From Halegenticoccus tardaugens (GTDB lineage: Archaea > Halobacteriota > Halobacteria > Halobacteriales > Haloferacaceae), in the NCBI RefSeq assembly GCF_004116405.1, contig NZ_SDIC01000003.1, positions 248,001-312,000 on the forward strand: a stretch of 64,000 bases of DNA, in the 5' to 3' direction. The first letter of the stretch is position 1. Each line of letters opens with the position of its first letter. The notes beneath the pieces are model-generated. The model searched no databases. It had not been told where the DNA came from and worked only from the letters and a program-made list of their open reading frames with translations. Shown here piece after piece: positions 8,359 to 59,897 of the stretch. Position numbers and translations under genes: made by a program.

Positions 8359-9322
8359 ATGAGAGGGAGGCAATGGTTCGCGGCGGCGTTCGCCGCGATG
8401 CTCGTCGTCGCCGGGGCTTCGGCGTTCGCCGGAACCGCCGCGGCCGACGACGCACAGACGATCGACGTAGAACAGGAGGGCGAAGCGGGGACGGCGACCG
8501 TCTCCGCGACCGAAAACGACACCGCCGTCGAGGGCGCGACCGTCGAGGTCGAAGCCGACGGTAACTACTCGGGCGCGGGCGACTACGAGACGGACGAGAA
8601 CGGCACCGTCGAGCTCCCCGCGCCGAACGAGACGACCGACGTGAACGTGACCGTCGTCGTCGACGAGGAGACGGAGACGACGATCGAACTCGCGGGGCCC
8701 GAACTCGCGGTCGACGCCGAGAGCGCGGCTGACGGAACGGCCGTCGTCTCGGTCACGCGCTACGGTGCCGGCGTCCCGAACGCGTCGGTGTCGGTCGCCG
8801 CCGACGGCGACTACTCGGGTGCGGGTGACTACGCGACGAACGACGAGGGCACCGTCGAACTGCCCGCGCCGAACGAGACGACGGACGTCGAGATCGAGGC
8901 GTCGGAGGGCAACGAGACGGTCGAGACGACCGCCACGCTCGACGCGCGAGGAGGAGTCGATGGCGTTCGGTCAGCGCGTCTCCGGATTCGTCGCGGGACT
9001 GCTCGGTAGCGGCGACGACGACGCGGAGGGCGGCATCGGCCAGTCGGTCTCGGAGTTCGCCCGCGAGGAGAACCCGAGCAACGACGAGCGGCCCGATCAC
9101 GCCGGTCCGTCGAACGAGACGGATGCGGAGAACGCCTCGGACGAGAAACGCGGCGAGAACGCCTCGAAGTCCGGCGAAGACGCGCCGGAGAACGGCTCCG
9201 ACGCGACGCCGGACCGGGCAGCCGACGGATCGTCCGACGCCGACGAGGACGAGAGCGACGAGCGCGGGAACGGCTCCGGCGCGGACGACCGCGGCGGACC
9301 GCCCGCGCACGCGAAGGCGTAG
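8359..9322 (+). pseudogene. Secreted repeat-containing surface protein, interrupted by a frameshift
   Basis: The first frame (8359-9009) begins MRGRQWFAAAFAAMLVVAG, a Sec-type signal peptide ending near AAADD, then two related 90-residue segments sharing SGAGDY and GTVELPAPNETTDV. At 8943-8950 the continuing sequence moves to the next frame, which reads REEESMAFGQRVSGFVAGLL and then a very acidic Asn/Glu/Asp/Ser-rich tail ending HAKA at 9322. The joint lies in a GCGCGCG run; adding one CG there would give one 322-residue protein (signal, two repeats, hydrophobic helix, acidic tail). It could be a real mutation, a phase-variable tract or an assembly error. Without correction the first frame ends after 216 residues; a separate start at ATG 8960 could serve the second part. 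Confidence 0.65.
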
Positions 9323-9444
9323 CGATCGAACGATCCGGGCGCGACTCGGGCAGAGAGGCACCCGATACGCGTTTTCGACCGCCGTTTTCGCGCGCGGCTC
9401 GACGCTCCGGTAGGGTTTTGAGCGGCGTCGCCGAACCAGCGGTC

Positions 9445-51862: not shown

Positions 51863-53713
51863 GTGGTCGCGATCACGCCGGGCATCGCCGTCGTCTTCGC
51901 CGTCGTCCTCGCCGCGCTCGTCCTCTTCGTCACCGAGCCCGTGCCGGTCGACATCACCGCGATCGGCGTGATGGTGACGCTGATGCTCGTCGCGCCCGCC
52001 TCCGAGGCGCTCGTCGCAGTCGGGCTGCTCGACGCGCCGATCGAGCTGATCTCCTACGACGAGGGGCTTTCCGGCTTCGCCAACGCCGCGACGATCACGG
52101 TCCTCGCGATGTTCGTCCTCAGCGAGGGCGTCCAGCGGACGGGCGTCATCCAGCTCCTCGGGGCGAAGATCGCGGCGGTGACGAGAGAGAGCGAGACGCG
52201 CCAGCTCGGCGCGACGATCGGCGTCGTGGCCCCCATCTCGGGGTTCATCAACAACACCGCGGCGGTGGCCATCCTGCTCCCGATGGTGACGGATCTCGCG
52301 GAGCGGGGGCGGACGTCCCCGTCGAAGCTCCTCTTACCCCTCTCGTACGCGTCGATGTTCGGCGGCACCCTGACGCTCATCGGCACCTCGACGAACATCC
52401 TCGCGAGCGACCTCTACGCGCGCCTCACGGGTCAGCCGCCGTTCGGGATGTTCGAGTTCACCGCCCTCGGGGCCGTCGTCGCCGTCGTCGGGACGGCGTA
52501 CCTCCTGACGGTCGGTCGGACGCTTACCCCGGCGCGGATCAAGCCCCGGACCGATCTGACGGAGGAGTTCCAGATGGCCGAGTACCTGACGGAGGTTTTC
52601 GTCCGGCAGGACTCCCCGCTCGTCGGCGAACGGGTGGCGGACGCGCTCGCGGAGTCGCGGTTCGACGTGGACCTCCTGCAGCTCATCCGCGACGGCGAGG
52701 TGTTCCTCGAACCGCTCGGTCCGAAGCAGATCCGTGCGGGGGACGTGTTCACCGTCCGGACCGACCGGGCGACGCTCGTCGACCTCCTCGACGCCGAGGG
52801 GCTCGACATCGTCCCGGCGAGGGTCACGGAGGAGGAGCTGGAGGCGGGCGGCCGCGGGCAGAACCTCGTCGAGGTCGTCGTCGCGCCCGGCTCGTCGCTG
52901 GTCGACGAGTCGCTCGCGTCCGCGAGCTTCCGACAGCGGTACGACGCGACGGTGCTCGCGCTGCGCCGCGGCGGCGAGCTCATCAGGCGGCGGATGGACA
53001 ACGTTCCCCTTCGCGTCGGCGACACCCTGCTCGTGCAGGCGACGACCGACAGCGTCGAGCGCCTCGACACCAACCGCGACTTCATCGTCGCACAGGAGAT
53101 CGAGCGCCACGATTACCGCGAGTCGAAGATCCCGATCGCCATCGGAATCGTCGCGCTGGTGGTCGCGGTCGCGGCGGTCGACGTCGTCCCGATCGTCGTG
53201 TCGGCGCTCGCGGGGGCGCTCGCGATGGTGCTGACCGGCTGTCTCAGGCCCGGCGAGGTGTACGACTCGGTCCAGTGGGACGTCATCTTCCTGCTCGCGG
53301 GCGTCATCCCGCTCGGGATCGCGCTGGAGCGAACGGGCGCGGCGGAGCTGATCGCCGACTTCGTCGTGCTGACCGCGGACGTCTTCCCGATGCTGGGCGT
53401 CCTCGCGGTGTTCTACCTCCTGACCGCTCTCCTGACGAACGTCATCAGCAACAACGCCAGCGTGGTGCTCATGGTGCCGGTCGCCATCGAGGCCGCGGGT
53501 GCCCTCGGCGCGAACCCCTTTTCGTTCGTGATCGCGGTGACGTTCGCGGCGAGTACGGCCTTCATGACCCCCGTCGGCTACCAGACGAACCTCTTCGTCT
53601 ACGGGCCGGGGGGCTACCGGTTCACCGACTACGTTCGCGTCGGCGCGCCGCTGCAACTGCTCTTCGCGCTGGTGACGACGCTCGGCATCGCGGTGTTCTT
53701 CCCGCTTTCGTAA
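51863..53713 (+). CDS. SLC13-family permease with paired TrkA-C domains
   Basis: 616 residues from GTG 51863 (TTG 51836 adds nine). About eleven membrane segments; DASS/ArsB-like motifs occur in TVLAMFVLSEGVQRTGVIQL, FINNTAAVAILLPMVTDLAE and GTLTLIGTSTNILASDLYAR, and again in the second half (VISNNASVVLMVPVAIEAAG, STAFMTPVGYQTNLFVYGPG). Between the halves sit two TrkA-C-like domains (about 230-410) that usually bind nucleotides or ions. Members carry dicarboxylates, sulfate or silicate-like anions; substrate unknown. It is followed by tRNA-Pro. Confidence 0.9.
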   Translation: MVAITPGIAVVFAVVLAALVLFVTEPVPVDITAIGVMVTLMLVAPASEALVAVGLLDAPIELISYDEGLSGFANAATITVLAMFVLSEGVQRTGVIQLLGAKIAAVTRESETRQLGATIGVVAPISGFINNTAAVAILLPMVTDLAERGRTSPSKLLLPLSYASMFGGTLTLIGTSTNILASDLYARLTGQPPFGMFEFTALGAVVAVVGTAYLLTVGRTLTPARIKPRTDLTEEFQMAEYLTEVFVRQDSPLVGERVADALAESRFDVDLLQLIRDGEVFLEPLGPKQIRAGDVFTVRTDRATLVDLLDAEGLDIVPARVTEEELEAGGRGQNLVEVVVAPGSSLVDESLASASFRQRYDATVLALRRGGELIRRRMDNVPLRVGDTLLVQATTDSVERLDTNRDFIVAQEIERHDYRESKIPIAIGIVALVVAVAAVDVVPIVVSALAGALAMVLTGCLRPGEVYDSVQWDVIFLLAGVIPLGIALERTGAAELIADFVVLTADVFPMLGVLAVFYLLTALLTNVISNNASVVLMVPVAIEAAGALGANPFSFVIAVTFAASTAFMTPVGYQTNLFVYGPGGYRFTDYVRVGAPLQLLFALVTTLGIAVFFPLS

Positions 53714-53757: not shown

Positions 53758-53830
53758 GGGACCGTGGGTTAGCCTGGTATACTTCGAGCCTTGGGTGCTC
53801 GTGACCCCGGTTCGAATCCGGGCGGTCCCA
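53758..53830 (+). tRNA. tRNA-Pro (TGG)
   Basis: Acceptor GGGACCG/CGGTCCC with discriminator A, D-arm region AGCCTGGTA, anticodon stem CGAGC/GCTCG with loop CTTGGGT (anticodon TGG), T-arm CCCGG/CCGGG with TTCGAAT. No intron is visible and CCA is not encoded. A TATA-like CTTTACA lies about 30 bp upstream (53724-53730). A 14-base copy of the T-arm is found 79 bp downstream. Confidence 0.95.
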
Positions 53831-53887: not shown

Positions 53888-53901
53888 GGTTCGAATCCGG
53901 G
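53888..53901 (+). repeat. Exact 14-base copy of the tRNA-Pro T-arm
   Basis: GGTTCGAATCCGGG repeats the tRNA-Pro bases 53809-53822, but the next bases (AGGGGCA) no longer match the acceptor. T-arm sequences are generic, so this is weaker evidence of an attachment site than the tRNA-His copy. Confidence 0.4.
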
Positions 53902-53975
53902 AGGGGCAAACGATGCGAGAGCACGTCACTGGTGTCCTTGACGCCGGTCCGCGCGGGGTAGGCGTCGGCATCGCG

Positions 53976-53993
53976 GCTTCAACCCCACAAGGG
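53976..53993 (-). CRISPR. Orphan half CRISPR repeat (haloarchaeal type I-B style)
   Basis: On the minus strand the 18 bases read CCCTTGTGGGGTTGAAGC, the 3' half (with the 8-base GTTGAAGC handle) of the repeat found in many haloarchaeal I-B arrays. The 5' half of the repeat is not recognisable beyond 53993. No second copy or spacer-sized spacing was found, so this is a lone degenerate element, placed between tRNA-Pro and vapBC. Sequence to its left (about 53938-53975) would be its spacer-like part if transcribed. Confidence 0.6.
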
Positions 53994-54020
53994 CCGATCA
54001 CGACGCAACCGAAGATACAG

Positions 54021-54034
54021 GTACGTCGACGTAC
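54021..54034. promoter_or_regulatory. 14-bp palindrome before vapB
   Basis: GTACGTCGACGTAC is a perfect palindrome ending 14 bp in front of ATG 54049, at the position expected for a VapBC operator. A TATA-like GATACAG (54014-54020) touches it. Confidence 0.55.
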
Positions 54035-54048
54035 AACGTCAACGTGTG

Positions 54049-54297
54049 ATGGGCGCTGCAGATGAACAGATCCGCGTCAGCGAAGCCGTGAAGCGCGAGA
54101 TCAAACGGCGCCGGCGCGAGGGCGAAAGTTACAACGACGTCCTCGAGCGGCTATTCGGCACCGACCGTGACCGGGGACGTGACCTTCTGGCCGGAGCGGG
54201 TTTCTGGTCGTCCGAGAAGGCCGACCGGGTCCGCGAGACCCGCCGGAAGTACAAAGAGAAGTCGAAGGAACGGATCGAGCAGCGGGGCGGGCGCTGA
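54049..54297 (+). CDS. vapB: VapB-type antitoxin
   Basis: 82 residues from ATG 54049 (a GTG one codon earlier is in frame). An N-terminal RHH-like DNA-binding part (EQIRVSEAVKREIKRRRREG, ESYNDVLERLFGTDR) and a C-terminal helical, basic end (KADRVRETRRKYKEKSKERI) that would wrap the toxin. This is the first gene of a two-gene module; it ends 3 bp before vapC. A perfect 14-bp palindrome lies just before the start. An orphan CRISPR half-repeat lies 56 bp upstream. Confidence 0.85.
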   Translation: MGAADEQIRVSEAVKREIKRRRREGESYNDVLERLFGTDRDRGRDLLAGAGFWSSEKADRVRETRRKYKEKSKERIEQRGGR

Positions 54298-54300
54298 CGG

Positions 54301-54708
54301 ATGAAGGTCCTGGACGCGACGTTCTTGGCTGACTACCTCGAGGACGTCGACGCCGCAACCCGGTACCTCCAGGAGCACTCGACCGAGCGGTTCGTCGTCC
54401 CGGCGCCGGCGTTCGCGGAGGTCCTCGTCGGAGAGGGAAACGGCCCGGGCGAGAGTGACATCGAGGGCGCTCGCGACGCCCTGTCGTGGGCCGAGGTGTA
54501 TCCCGTTGACGGGCGGACGGCCATCACCGCAGCGGAGATCGCCGACGAGGTCGGCCCGCAGGGCCCGTACCTCACCGGGATGGACGGCGTGATCGCGGCG
54601 GTCGGTCGTGAGCTCGACGCGGCGGTCGTAAGCGCCGACCGGGATCTCACGCACCCGGAGACCGCGGCCGTGATCGACGTCGAGGACTACGCGGACACGG
54701 GCCGATGA
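54301..54708 (+). CDS. vapC: VapC-type PIN ribonuclease toxin
   Basis: 135 residues. The PIN domain begins MKVLDATFLADYLEDVDAAT with the first catalytic Asp5; FVVPAPAFAEVLVGEG has the acidic Glu of the fold; DGVIAAVGRELDAAVVSADR and DLTHPE carry the later Asp pair. VapC toxins cut tRNA or rRNA when freed from VapB. It overlaps the next broken ORF by ATGA. No frame disruption in either TA gene. Confidence 0.88.
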   Translation: MKVLDATFLADYLEDVDAATRYLQEHSTERFVVPAPAFAEVLVGEGNGPGESDIEGARDALSWAEVYPVDGRTAITAAEIADEVGPQGPYLTGMDGVIAAVGRELDAAVVSADRDLTHPETAAVIDVEDYADTGR

Positions 54709-55835: not shown

Positions 55836-58800
55836 ATGGCTCAGGCGCAGAACCAGGAGCTGACCGAGCGGTTCATTCAGTTCTACCGCAACTACTACCG
55901 GGAGGCCATCGGTCAGCTCGCGCAGAAGTATCCGAACGAACAGCGTTCGCTGTACGTCGATTACGACGACCTCTACACCTTCGATCCGGATCTCGCCGAA
56001 GACTACCTCAGCCAGCCCGAACAGCTCCAAGAGTACGCGGAGGAGGCCCTCCGGCTCTACGACCTCCCCGCGGACGTGAGCCTCGGACAGGCGCACGTCA
56101 GGCTCCAGAACATCCCCGAGAGCATCGACATCCGCGGTATCCGGGTGCACGACAATCACGTCGGAAAACTCGTGAGCGTGCAGGGGATCGTCCGCAAGGC
56201 GACCGACGTGCGGCCGAAGATCACCGAAGCCGCCTTCGAGTGCCAACGCTGCGGGACGATGACGTACATCCCGCAGGCCGAAGGCGGATTTCAGGAGCCG
56301 CACGAGTGTCAGGGCTGCGAGCGACAGGGCCCGTTCCGGGTCAACTTCGATCAATCCGAGTTCATCGACTCGCAGAAGCTCCGCATCCAGGAGAGCCCCG
56401 AGGGCCTTCGCGGCGGCGAGACGCCCCAGAGCATCGACGTCAACATCGAAGACGACATCACCGGTCGGGTGACCGCGGGCGACCACGTCTCCGTCACGGG
56501 CGTCCTCCACATCGAGCAGATGCAGAACGGCCAGGAGAAGTCGGCCATCTTCGACCTCTACATGGACGGCATCTCGATCGTCATCGAGGACGAGGAGTTC
56601 GAGGACATGGACATCACCGACGAGGACAAACGCGAGATCGTCGAACTCTCGAACGACCCCGACATCTACGAGGAGATGGTCGCCTCGGTCGCGCCCTCCA
56701 TCTACGGCTACGACGAGCAGAAGCTGGCGATGATCCTGCAACTTTTCTCCGGCGTCACCAAACACCTCCCCGACGGCTCCCGGATCCGCGGCGACCTCCA
56801 CATGCTCCTGATCGGCGATCCCGGTACGGGTAAGAGCCAGCTCCTATCATATATCCAAAACATCGCCCCGCGGTCGGTCTACACGTCCGGCAAGGGGTCG
56901 TCCTCGGCCGGGTTGACGGCGGCGGCCGTCCGCGACGACTTCGGCGACGGCCAGCAGTGGTCGCTCGAGGCCGGCGCGCTCGTCCTCGCGGACAAGGGGA
57001 TCGCGGCCGTCGACGAACTCGATAAGATGCGCTGCGTGACGGGCGACACGCTCGTCCACCTCGGAGACGGTCGCGTGACGCGTATCGCCGAGCTCGCGCA
57101 CGAAGCCGGCGAAGACGGCGAGATCGAGACCCTATCGAACGGACGTACCATAAGAGACGTCGGCGTCGACGCGTGGACGATGACGGACGACGACCGACTC
57201 GTCACCCGACCGATCGCCGCGATTCACGAGTACGACGCGCCGGACGAACTGACGCGGGTGACGTTGGAGTCCGGCGAGAAGCTAACCGCGGTCGACGACC
57301 ACCCGTTTTTCGTCCTCGACGACGGCGAGCGCGTGGAGAAACCCGCCGAGGCGCTCGACCCCGACGACTGGGTGTACGTGCCCCGGCACCTCCCACGGCC
57401 GACGGGAGACGGCGGCGTCACCGCCGCCGAGCAGCCGACGGCTCCGTCGGCGGACGACGGTTCGAGAACGGAGGACGGTTCGGGGCCGGACGACCCTCCG
57501 CCGGCGTTCGGCGCGGTGCTCGGATACCTCTCCGGCGACGGGAACGTCTACTACGACCGCGACGAGGGCGTCTACGGGATCCGGTTCACCAACACGGAGG
57601 AAGAGCTTCTCTCGGATTTCGAAGACGCCTGTCGAGCCGCCTTCGGAACCACCCCCATTCGCCACCCGAGCGAACGGCGGGACGACGGCGTCGAGACCGT
57701 CCGACTTTCGGGCCGCGAGTACGCGGAGTCGGTGCTGGATGCCGGCATGTGCCTCGGCGCGTACGACGAGAGGGCGTTCCCGACGGCGGTGTCGGACGCA
57801 TCGCCGTCGACGAAGGCCGCCTTCGTCCGCGCGGTAGCCGACAGCGAAGGGTGCGTGGACGCCGCCACCGGGAACGTCAAAATCAGTTCGTCGAGCTACG
57901 AACTGCTGCTCGGCGTCAAGAGCCTCCTGCTCGAATTCGGGGTGACGTGTCAGATACGACACCGTGAGCACCCGGAGAAGCGCGATCTGTACGCGCTCGC
58001 GATCACCGCCGCCGACTCGCTCCGACGGTTCAATCGGCACGTCGGCTTTACCCTCGCCCGCAAGCAGTCGCTCCTCGACGAGGTTTGCGCGTCCGCCTCC
58101 GGCGACGGGACGATCCTCGACGTCATTCCCAACTGTGGCGAGCGGCTACGATCGCTCCGCGATTCGCTTCGGCTCTACGTTTCGGAGTGCGGTCTCGTCG
58201 ACGCAACCTACTGCAATTTCGAGAACGGAGACGCGAACGCGTCGATTTCCCGCGCCCGAACGATCCTCGACGCGTTCGAAGCGCGCAAGGCCGCCGCACG
58301 CGAGGACGCGGCGACGCTTTCCGATTCGTGTGACTGGCGCACCCTGACTCGACTCAAGGAACGCTACCACGTCTCCCAGTCCGAACTCGCGGACGGAACT
58401 GCCTTCAGCCAGCAGCAGATTTCGAACGACTGGGGCGAGGACGACGACCTTCAGGCGGTCGTGACGGGACGTCTCGGGGAGATCGTCGAGTCCGTCGCCG
58501 AAACCGACCTCAGCACGTTCCGCGAACTGGTTCGCGGCGACGTGATGTGGCGACGGGTGAAGACGGTCGAAACCGTCGCTGCGGATCGGGTCGACGACCG
58601 GATTCGGTTGCTGCGGAACGAACTGGCCGACGTCGTCGGTGGCGACGCGACGAACTGCGCCGAGCGGGCCCGAGCGCTGTTGGCCGCGGAACCGACCGTG
58701 GACGATTGGTCGGAGCTCCGACGGGAACTCGACCGGTACGGCGTCTCGTTCGCCGACGTCGCGACCGACCTCGGGGTCGACGGGTCGACCGTTTCGCGCT

Positions 58801-59897
58801 GGTTCGACGGCGTCGTTCGGACGGATCGGTTCGACGAGGTGGTCGACGTCGCGCTCGCCCGCATCGCGGACGTCCGCGAGGAGATTCGACGGCTTCTCGA
58901 CGCGATCGAGTCGCGCTCGGAGCCGAAGGTGTACGATATGACCGTCGAGGGGACGCACAACTTCGTCGCCAACGGCATGGTCGTTCACAACTCCGAAGAC
59001 CGCTCGGCCATGCACGAGGGGCTCGAACAACAGCAGATCAGCATCAGCAAGGCGGGCATCAACGCGACGCTCAAATCGCGGTGTTCGCTGCTCGGGGCGG
59101 CGAACCCGAAGTACGGCCGGTTCGACCAGTACGAATCGATCGGCGAGCAGATCGACCTCGAACCCGCGCTCATCTCGCGGTTCGATCTGATCTTCACCGT
59201 CACCGACCAGCCCGACCCCGAGCACGACAGCCGGCTGGCCGAGCACATCCTCCGGACGAACTACGCGGGCGAGTTACACACGCAGCGGACGCGGATGCCG
59301 CGGTCGAACTTCACCGCAGAGGAAGTCGAGGAGGTGACGGAGACGGTCGCGCCGTCCATCGATCCGGATCTCCTCCGGAAGTACATCGCCTACGCGAAGC
59401 GGAACGTCTTCCCGACGATGACCCCCGAGGCTCGCGAGGCGATCCGCGACTTCTACGTGAACCTCCGGTCGAAGGGTGCGGACGAGGACGCGCCCGTGCC
59501 CGTCACGGCCAGAAAGCTCGAAGCGCTCGTCCGCCTCTCCGAAGCGAGCGCCCGCGTCAGGCTCTCCGACACGGTCGAACCGGAGGACGCGGACCGCGTC
59601 ATCGAGATCGTGCGCTCCTGTCTGCAGGACATCGGGGTCGACCCCGAGACCGGTCAGTTCGACGCCGACGTGGTCGAGACGGGGCGGTCGAAGACCCAGC
59701 GCGATCGCATCAAGAACCTCAAACAGCTCATCGCCGACATCGAGGGCGAGTACGAGGAGGGCGCGCCGGTCGAGGAGGTGCTCGAACGCGCCGGCGAGAT
59801 CGGGCTCGACCGGTCCAAGGCCGAGGGGGAGATCGAAAAGCTCCGCCGGAAGGGCGAGGTGTACGAACCCCGCCAGAACCACCTCAGGACGACGTAG
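55836..59897 (+). CDS. mcm: Replicative DNA helicase MCM with an intein
   Basis: 1353 residues, of which 653 are intein (residues 400-1052). The exteins sum to 700 residues, the normal archaeal MCM length. Zinc ribbon: CQRCGTMTYIPQAEGGFQEP then HECQGCER. Walker A is LLIGDPGTGKSQLLSYIQNI; Walker B VLADKGIAAVDELDKM sits immediately before the intein; the Arg finger region SRFDLIFTVTDQPDPEHDSR follows. The intein splits DKMR from SEDRSAMHEG. Self-splicing is required for a working hexameric helicase. The C-terminal winged helix (RKYIAYAKRN to VYEPRQNHLRTT) is present. It opens a same-strand run of genes to 63703. Confidence 0.97.
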   Translation: MAQAQNQELTERFIQFYRNYYREAIGQLAQKYPNEQRSLYVDYDDLYTFDPDLAEDYLSQPEQLQEYAEEALRLYDLPADVSLGQAHVRLQNIPESIDIRGIRVHDNHVGKLVSVQGIVRKATDVRPKITEAAFECQRCGTMTYIPQAEGGFQEPHECQGCERQGPFRVNFDQSEFIDSQKLRIQESPEGLRGGETPQSIDVNIEDDITGRVTAGDHVSVTGVLHIEQMQNGQEKSAIFDLYMDGISIVIEDEEFEDMDITDEDKREIVELSNDPDIYEEMVASVAPSIYGYDEQKLAMILQLFSGVTKHLPDGSRIRGDLHMLLIGDPGTGKSQLLSYIQNIAPRSVYTSGKGSSSAGLTAAAVRDDFGDGQQWSLEAGALVLADKGIAAVDELDKMRCVTGDTLVHLGDGRVTRIAELAHEAGEDGEIETLSNGRTIRDVGVDAWTMTDDDRLVTRPIAAIHEYDAPDELTRVTLESGEKLTAVDDHPFFVLDDGERVEKPAEALDPDDWVYVPRHLPRPTGDGGVTAAEQPTAPSADDGSRTEDGSGPDDPPPAFGAVLGYLSGDGNVYYDRDEGVYGIRFTNTEEELLSDFEDACRAAFGTTPIRHPSERRDDGVETVRLSGREYAESVLDAGMCLGAYDERAFPTAVSDASPSTKAAFVRAVADSEGCVDAATGNVKISSSSYELLLGVKSLLLEFGVTCQIRHREHPEKRDLYALAITAADSLRRFNRHVGFTLARKQSLLDEVCASASGDGTILDVIPNCGERLRSLRDSLRLYVSECGLVDATYCNFENGDANASISRARTILDAFEARKAAAREDAATLSDSCDWRTLTRLKERYHVSQSELADGTAFSQQQISNDWGEDDDLQAVVTGRLGEIVESVAETDLSTFRELVRGDVMWRRVKTVETVAADRVDDRIRLLRNELADVVGGDATNCAERARALLAAEPTVDDWSELRRELDRYGVSFADVATDLGVDGSTVSRWFDGVVRTDRFDEVVDVALARIADVREEIRRLLDAIESRSEPKVYDMTVEGTHNFVANGMVVHNSEDRSAMHEGLEQQQISISKAGINATLKSRCSLLGAANPKYGRFDQYESIGEQIDLEPALISRFDLIFTVTDQPDPEHDSRLAEHILRTNYAGELHTQRTRMPRSNFTAEEVEEVTETVAPSIDPDLLRKYIAYAKRNVFPTMTPEAREAIRDFYVNLRSKGADEDAPVPVTARKLEALVRLSEASARVRLSDTVEPEDADRVIEIVRSCLQDIGVDPETGQFDADVVETGRSKTQRDRIKNLKQLIADIEGEYEEGAPVEEVLERAGEIGLDRSKAEGEIEKLRRKGEVYEPRQNHLRTT
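57033..58991 (+). mobile_element. MCM intein with LAGLIDADG endonuclease and two HTH motifs
   Basis: The splicing ends are intact: Cys400 (CVTGDTLVHLGDGRVT), block B TAVDDHPF with the TxxH histidine, and block G GTHNFVANGMVVHN ending His-Asn before extein Ser. A homing endonuclease of LAGLIDADG type is seen in VLGYLSGDGNVYYD (about 563) and FVRAVADSEGCVD (about 663). Unusually, two more HTH-like units follow (YHVSQSELADGTAFSQQQIS near 844, and YGVSFADVATDLGVDGSTVS near 968). Insertion is at the Walker B-proximal site in the MCM core. Confidence 0.9.

Follow-up and report, generated by a model that had tools for sequence, protein, structure and literature searches.

What is half of a CRISPR repeat doing, on its own, between a tRNA gene and a toxin-antitoxin operon? 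The question is raised by an 18-nt sequence in the window analyzed here, a 64-kb stretch of DNA (G000:C8:248001-312000) from a haloarchaeal genome of 4.89 Mb in 14 contigs. An earlier note on this DNA, in which the sequence was taken for the 3' half and handle of a type I-B repeat, offered two readings, namely a scar of a dead array and a solo regulator of vapBC.

A half repeat between tRNA-Pro and vapBC

The features of the locus, in the order of their coordinates in the window, are as follows.

53758-53830, plus strand: tRNA-Pro (TGG)
53889-53910, plus strand: partial copy of a tRNA 3' end, with 18 of 22 nt like the 3' end of tRNA-Pro; probable attachment-site scar
53940-53975, minus strand: 36-nt position corresponding to a spacer (the spacer-like part)
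53976-53993, minus strand: the 18-mer, CCCTTGTGGGGTTGAAGC, an exact match to the 3' 18 nt of the repeat of the genome's own mini-arrays on contigs C6 and C14
53994-54005, minus strand: site of the missing 5' 12 nt of the repeat, occupied by unrelated sequence
54012-54045, plus strand: vapBC promoter/operator block with the TATA-like GATACA, the palindromic GTACGTCGACGTAC and AACGTCAACGT, from 17 aligned upstream regions
54046-54297, plus strand: VapB-type antitoxin (PF02697, E 3e-14)
54301-54708, plus strand: PIN-domain VapC-type toxin (PF01850, E 1.5e-8)

The 18-mer, which consists of the stem-loop and the 8-nt handle of the repeat, is found where the earlier note had placed it, with tRNA-Pro on one side and the toxin-antitoxin operon on the other, and is single in the window even when 3 mismatches are allowed (shuffling expects 0). 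Because the adjoining 12 nt are unrelated to the 5' part of the repeat (3/12 identical), the repeat is counted as truncated. The respective 30-mer is the best match to the genome's own repeat, with 21/30 identical positions (all 18 in the 3' half), and every other 30-mer of the whole 64-kb window stays below 19/30, so that the assertion that there is no array here holds: as against the two or more full-length repeats at a spacing of 30-40 nt that make a CRISPR array, the window contains one partial repeat. The handle, GTTGAAGC, is seen once at the locus, a second repeat-like unit is absent, and no leader was detected. An Rfam search at this site yields a sub-threshold match to CRISPR-DR24 (20.8 bits, with the cut-off at 35).

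The tRNA-Pro side of the locus appears to be variable. In the congener G001, tRNA-Pro is followed by a tRNA 3'-end duplicate, a PadR-type regulator and the same bat/HTH_10 gene, and this genome lacks vapBC, a close repeat and Cas7. Together with the partial tRNA end in the window, this difference indicates a variable patch in which pieces of other DNA are to be expected. No integrase or virus genes are present among the ORFs flanking the 18-mer in the stretch examined. A second partial tRNA-Pro 3' end, about 60-190 bp downstream, was observed in the window and in 12 of the 29 relatives' loci scanned (L069, L070, L072, L078, L079, L081, L084-L087, L089 and L097), with four copies each in L085 and L087; these look like serial attachment-site scars at tRNA-Pro. 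Congener G001, which lacks Cas7, carries elsewhere a lone degenerate repeat-like sequence, GTTTCACATGTACCCTCTTATGGGGTTGACGC (L104, G001:C3:241328-241345, minus strand), an apparent CRISPR relic. On the far side of vapBC, the MCM helicase gene (55836-59897) is a single frame of 1353 aa with an apparent intein (CVTGDTLV ... VVHN in the translation).

Repeat class and chance expectation

The genome encodes one complete type I-B locus, on contig C7, with cas1, cas4, cas6, cas8, cas7, cas5 and cas3 as read from gene order and sequences (Cas7 is confirmed by PF05107, E 1e-45), so that I-B Cas proteins are present. The large arrays adjoining these genes have the repeats GTTCCAGACGCACCCACGTGGGATTGAAAG (and a variant) and GTTTCAGCCGAACCCTTGAGGGGTTGCAGT, which differ from the repeat shared by C6 and C14. 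The orphan mini-array on C6 consists of 4 repeats of 30 nt, GTTACAGACGAACCCTTGTGGGGTTGAAGC, three of which contain the exact 18-mer, whereas the fourth and last has one mismatch in the 18-nt half; in the mini-array on C14, both of the two repeats are mutated, and one contains the exact 18-mer. Both mini-arrays are located far from the cas genes, on contigs other than that carrying them, and have a leader-like upstream sequence in common. Given the exact match to C6/C14 and the other repeats of the large C7 arrays, the half repeat is, judged by its sequence, of the class of the orphan mini-arrays and not of the cas-adjacent arrays.

Two side observations concern these elements. Upstream of the mini-arrays on C6 (L009 8690-8912) and C14 (L010, about 9035-9126), there is an inverted repeat, TTCCGTCGACC...GGTCGACGGAA, with the leader end GGCCATG. 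A degenerate two-repeat mini-array on C1 (L011, G000:C1; GTTTCAGAAAAACCCTTGTGGGGTTGCAGC, a 34-nt spacer and GTTTCAAAAGAATCTAGCGGGGTTGAATCC) contains a copy of the 18-mer with one mismatch (C1:171430-171447, minus strand) and is flanked by a rhodanese-like and an HTH-type gene in a CreA-like layout; a TTC-flanked seed target for it was not found within 19 kb.

Could the 18-mer have arisen independently in intergenic DNA, without any relationship to CRISPR? Under Markov models of zero to third order trained on the window, the expected number of copies per genome is from 1.7e-4 (order 0) down to 5e-6 (order 3), so that the match exceeds what chance would readily give; in 1.37 Gb, roughly the size of 392 genomes, the expectation is 0.05 to 0.0014. 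Moreover, the matched repeat is carried by the same genome, and the 18-mer is intergenic, inside an accessory patch. Against these low expectations stand the look-elsewhere factor, i.e., the first-stage scan covered many windows, which raises the odds of coincidence, and the reversed-pattern controls, which gave 6 matches at up to 3 mismatches in the genome itself. Furthermore, three more exact matches were detected in bacteria among 84,980 species genomes; none of them has a further repeat within 1.5 kb, and they look like coincidences. Independent origin is thus unlikely, but we allow it an appreciable share, in view of the many windows that the reader had scanned.

The distribution of the half repeat is compatible with coincidence as well. 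The 392 genomes of the order were searched for the exact 18-mer not preceded by A (array repeats carry A at this position, hence its exclusion from the pattern), after which the flanks were read. Eight genomes matched, the present one included. In six of the others (G127, G173, G207, G259, G323 and G420, with at least one locus read in each), the loci read are array repeats with a changed or inserted base, and in G287, which was not closely read, two matches 68 bp apart show array spacing, so that the window contains the only non-array instance by this pattern, one that misses halves cut elsewhere or mutated and hence does not demonstrate a general rarity of relics. Matches in relatives to the 18-mer extended by the first 4-12 spacer bases were rejected as well, given that the loci read fully, L053, L055, L065, L066, L067 and L100-L102 among them, are ordinary CRISPR arrays whose spacers begin alike by chance.

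The vapBC promoter and the search for a target

Both proteins of the operon score above the cut-offs of their Pfam families and a conserved palindromic operator lies upstream, as in VapBC type II toxin-antitoxin systems. The palindrome reported in the earlier note is perfect and 14 bp long (54021-54034). The 17 homologous vapB upstream regions share a TATA-like element and the GTCAACG...CAACGTCAACGT operator within about 36 nt of the start codon and are conserved only from about 54012 onward. The 18-mer lies 53-70 bp upstream of vapB, outside this conserved TATA/operator block, and is present in none of the 17 aligned promoters. Control of vapBC is most simply ascribed to its own VapB operator.

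No solo repeat was found in the homologous vapBC loci and their flanks (scanned over as much as 30 kb in seven cases). Repeats occur near a homologous vapBC in a single locus, that of G069, where vapBC directly adjoins an array at its terminal repeat (L109 9294-9323; vapC end at 9326); this array lies downstream of vapC, in the orientation opposite to that in the window. This arrangement indicates that the vapBC family and CRISPR arrays can end up as neighbors; shared ancestry with the arrangement in the window would not follow from adjacency. In the same locus (L109 8380-9960), the array end alternates with two toxin-antitoxin modules, such that a PIN-type toxin and its partner are encoded between the array and the last repeat, which is directly followed by the vapBC homolog.

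These observations bear on the second of the two readings, in which a solo crRNA-like regulatory RNA (CreA/CreR-like), transcribed from the minus strand, would steer Cascade to repress vapBC or, in a wider version than the note's, another gene. No dedicated minus-strand promoter is visible for the element. Upstream on this strand, the sole TATA-like stretch (TGTATC, 54019-54014) is the vapB TATA-like element read in reverse complement and, at the usual TATA-to-start spacing of haloarchaeal promoters, would start transcription within the 18-mer. Neither a T-run nor a T-rich end follows the 36-nt spacer position. Folding of a 42-nt segment gives an extended hairpin with a z of -2.6, which would favor an RNA, but the segment was picked after the 66-nt fold (z only -0.96) had been seen and, being chosen post hoc, is given no weight.

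The intact stem-loop and 8-nt handle, together with the complete I-B cascade encoded on C7, which supplies the type I Cas effector that CreTA requires, are compatible with such an RNA. The CreA of H. hispanica likewise has a single repeat-like unit (PMC8501985), and degeneracy is the rule among ectopic repeats (PMC9458426). CreA recognizes a site flanked by TTC in the promoter of the toxin, with which its spacer-like part pairs at positions 1-5 and 7-11 (PMC8501985). In the vapB promoter, there is no TTC-PAM target with these seed positions, and the best 12-nt match is 7/12. Genome-wide, matches to PAM and seed are numerous but look like codon-biased coding sequence, and the seed and PAM search of the window and of other loci of this genome yielded no convincing target beyond such matches. 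One candidate, a match of 11 nt beside a CAC PAM at 53692, within the transporter gene lying upstream, was discarded, as this 11-mer recurs elsewhere in the window. Of the first 12 spacer-like nucleotides, nine agree with the C14 mini-array's first spacer, an overlap with a chance of, by rough estimate, a few per thousand, which would speak for this RNA. Altogether, given also that the motif is nowhere conserved with vapBC and has no second repeat, a solo crRNA-like regulator is improbable, and of the two readings in the earlier note, it is the scar of a dead array that is better supported, by the I-B Cas proteins, the presence of the 18-mer in the genome's own orphan arrays, and the truncated and solitary state of the piece.

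A highly improbable variant is a minimal guide RNA, consisting of the stem-loop and handle only and divergent from vapB, that would load the I-B effector and tie the protein toxin-antitoxin operon to CRISPR activity by way of a target that is distant or non-canonical.

The origin of the spacer-like part was sought as well. No phage match was found, and plasmids give short stretches only; in viral contigs, there is one exact 20-mer match, which ends at 20 nt, in a contig of 42% GC. A match to the 3' end of thiC from G289 (79% over 53 nt, in the thiC reading frame) is probably due to chance, given that thiC of this genome and of 13 relatives show no match, and the spacer-like part was rejected as a thiC 3' fragment. 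The similarity of the 5' flank to the region upstream of vapBC in Natrinema, which would place a junction exactly at the repeat edge, is alignment-dependent (p about 0.016) and is not claimed.

A probable array relic and its relation to known systems

The 18-mer is probably a non-functional, truncated remnant of a type I-B repeat that comes from an array of the C6/C14 class and lies in an accessory patch. The 3' part of the repeat, cut inside the repeat, would have remained between tRNA-Pro and vapBC; the donor would have been an array sharing its repeat class with the decaying orphan mini-arrays on C6 and C14, and the rest of it may have been lost through recombination or deletion within the patch, the vapBC operon probably having been acquired separately. 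The identity, the truncation, the lack of further repeats in the window and the lack of the motif upstream of homologous vapBC operons are observed directly, whereas the origin through recombination or deletion and the loss of function are inferences. That all 18 nt agree with repeats found in this genome, at a very low chance expectation, argues for this origin, and so do the unrelated 5' half, the solitary state of the piece in the window and the variability of the patch compared to G001. At a distance from its cas genes, on C6 and C14, the genome has further repeat stretches that are short or degenerate; the homologous promoters begin to be conserved only downstream of the 18-mer, and in G069, vapBC lies beside an array. 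On the other side, the 18 nt are perfect, without the scattered mutations expected of a relic, and coincide with the functional stem-loop and 5' handle; neither a leader nor a second decayed repeat marks an old array. In addition, given that no other solitary half was identified in the 392 genomes (exact 18-mer, A-preceded copies excluded), such a piece would not be a common decay product.

As a relic, the 18-mer would illustrate on a small scale how a CRISPR array decays and is shuffled with toxin-antitoxin genes at a variable locus next to a tRNA gene, and the proximity of such an 18-mer to a toxin operon does not by itself make a CreA-like regulator. Only with a Cas6-processed RNA would the locus be of greater importance, as a link of a protein toxin-antitoxin pair to CRISPR.

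Solitary repeat units and the RNA anti-CRISPRs (Racr) among them resemble the window element in being single repeat-like units without an array, but are near-full-length, located behind a promoter and encoded on mobile elements, including archaeal ones (PMC10651486). The position next to a tRNA gene whose end is duplicated would suit a Racr-like unit, whereas the piece in the window retains 18 of the 30 nt, the only TATA-like stretch is that of vapB, integrase and virus genes are missing next to the site in the stretch examined, and viral contigs contain neither a relative of vapC nor a copy of the element with its spacer start; an anti-CRISPR role is thus extremely improbable. CreA of the CreTA systems (H. 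hispanica, H. hubeiense; PMC8501985, PMC9458426) is comparable in that it, too, resembles a repeat, lies outside any array and neighbors a toxin gene, and its host encodes I-B Cas. However, the toxin that CreA represses is a small RNA, whose promoter contains the partial match flanked by a PAM, and the cas genes are adjacent to CreA, whereas the neighbor of the window element is a protein toxin-antitoxin pair, no target was found, and the cas genes lie on a different contig. The orphan type I-B mini-arrays on C6 and C14 comprise 2-4 repeats of full length together with spacers and have a leader-like upstream sequence in common, compared to one half repeat without a leader in the window, and the 3' 18 nt of their repeat are identical to the window 18-mer.
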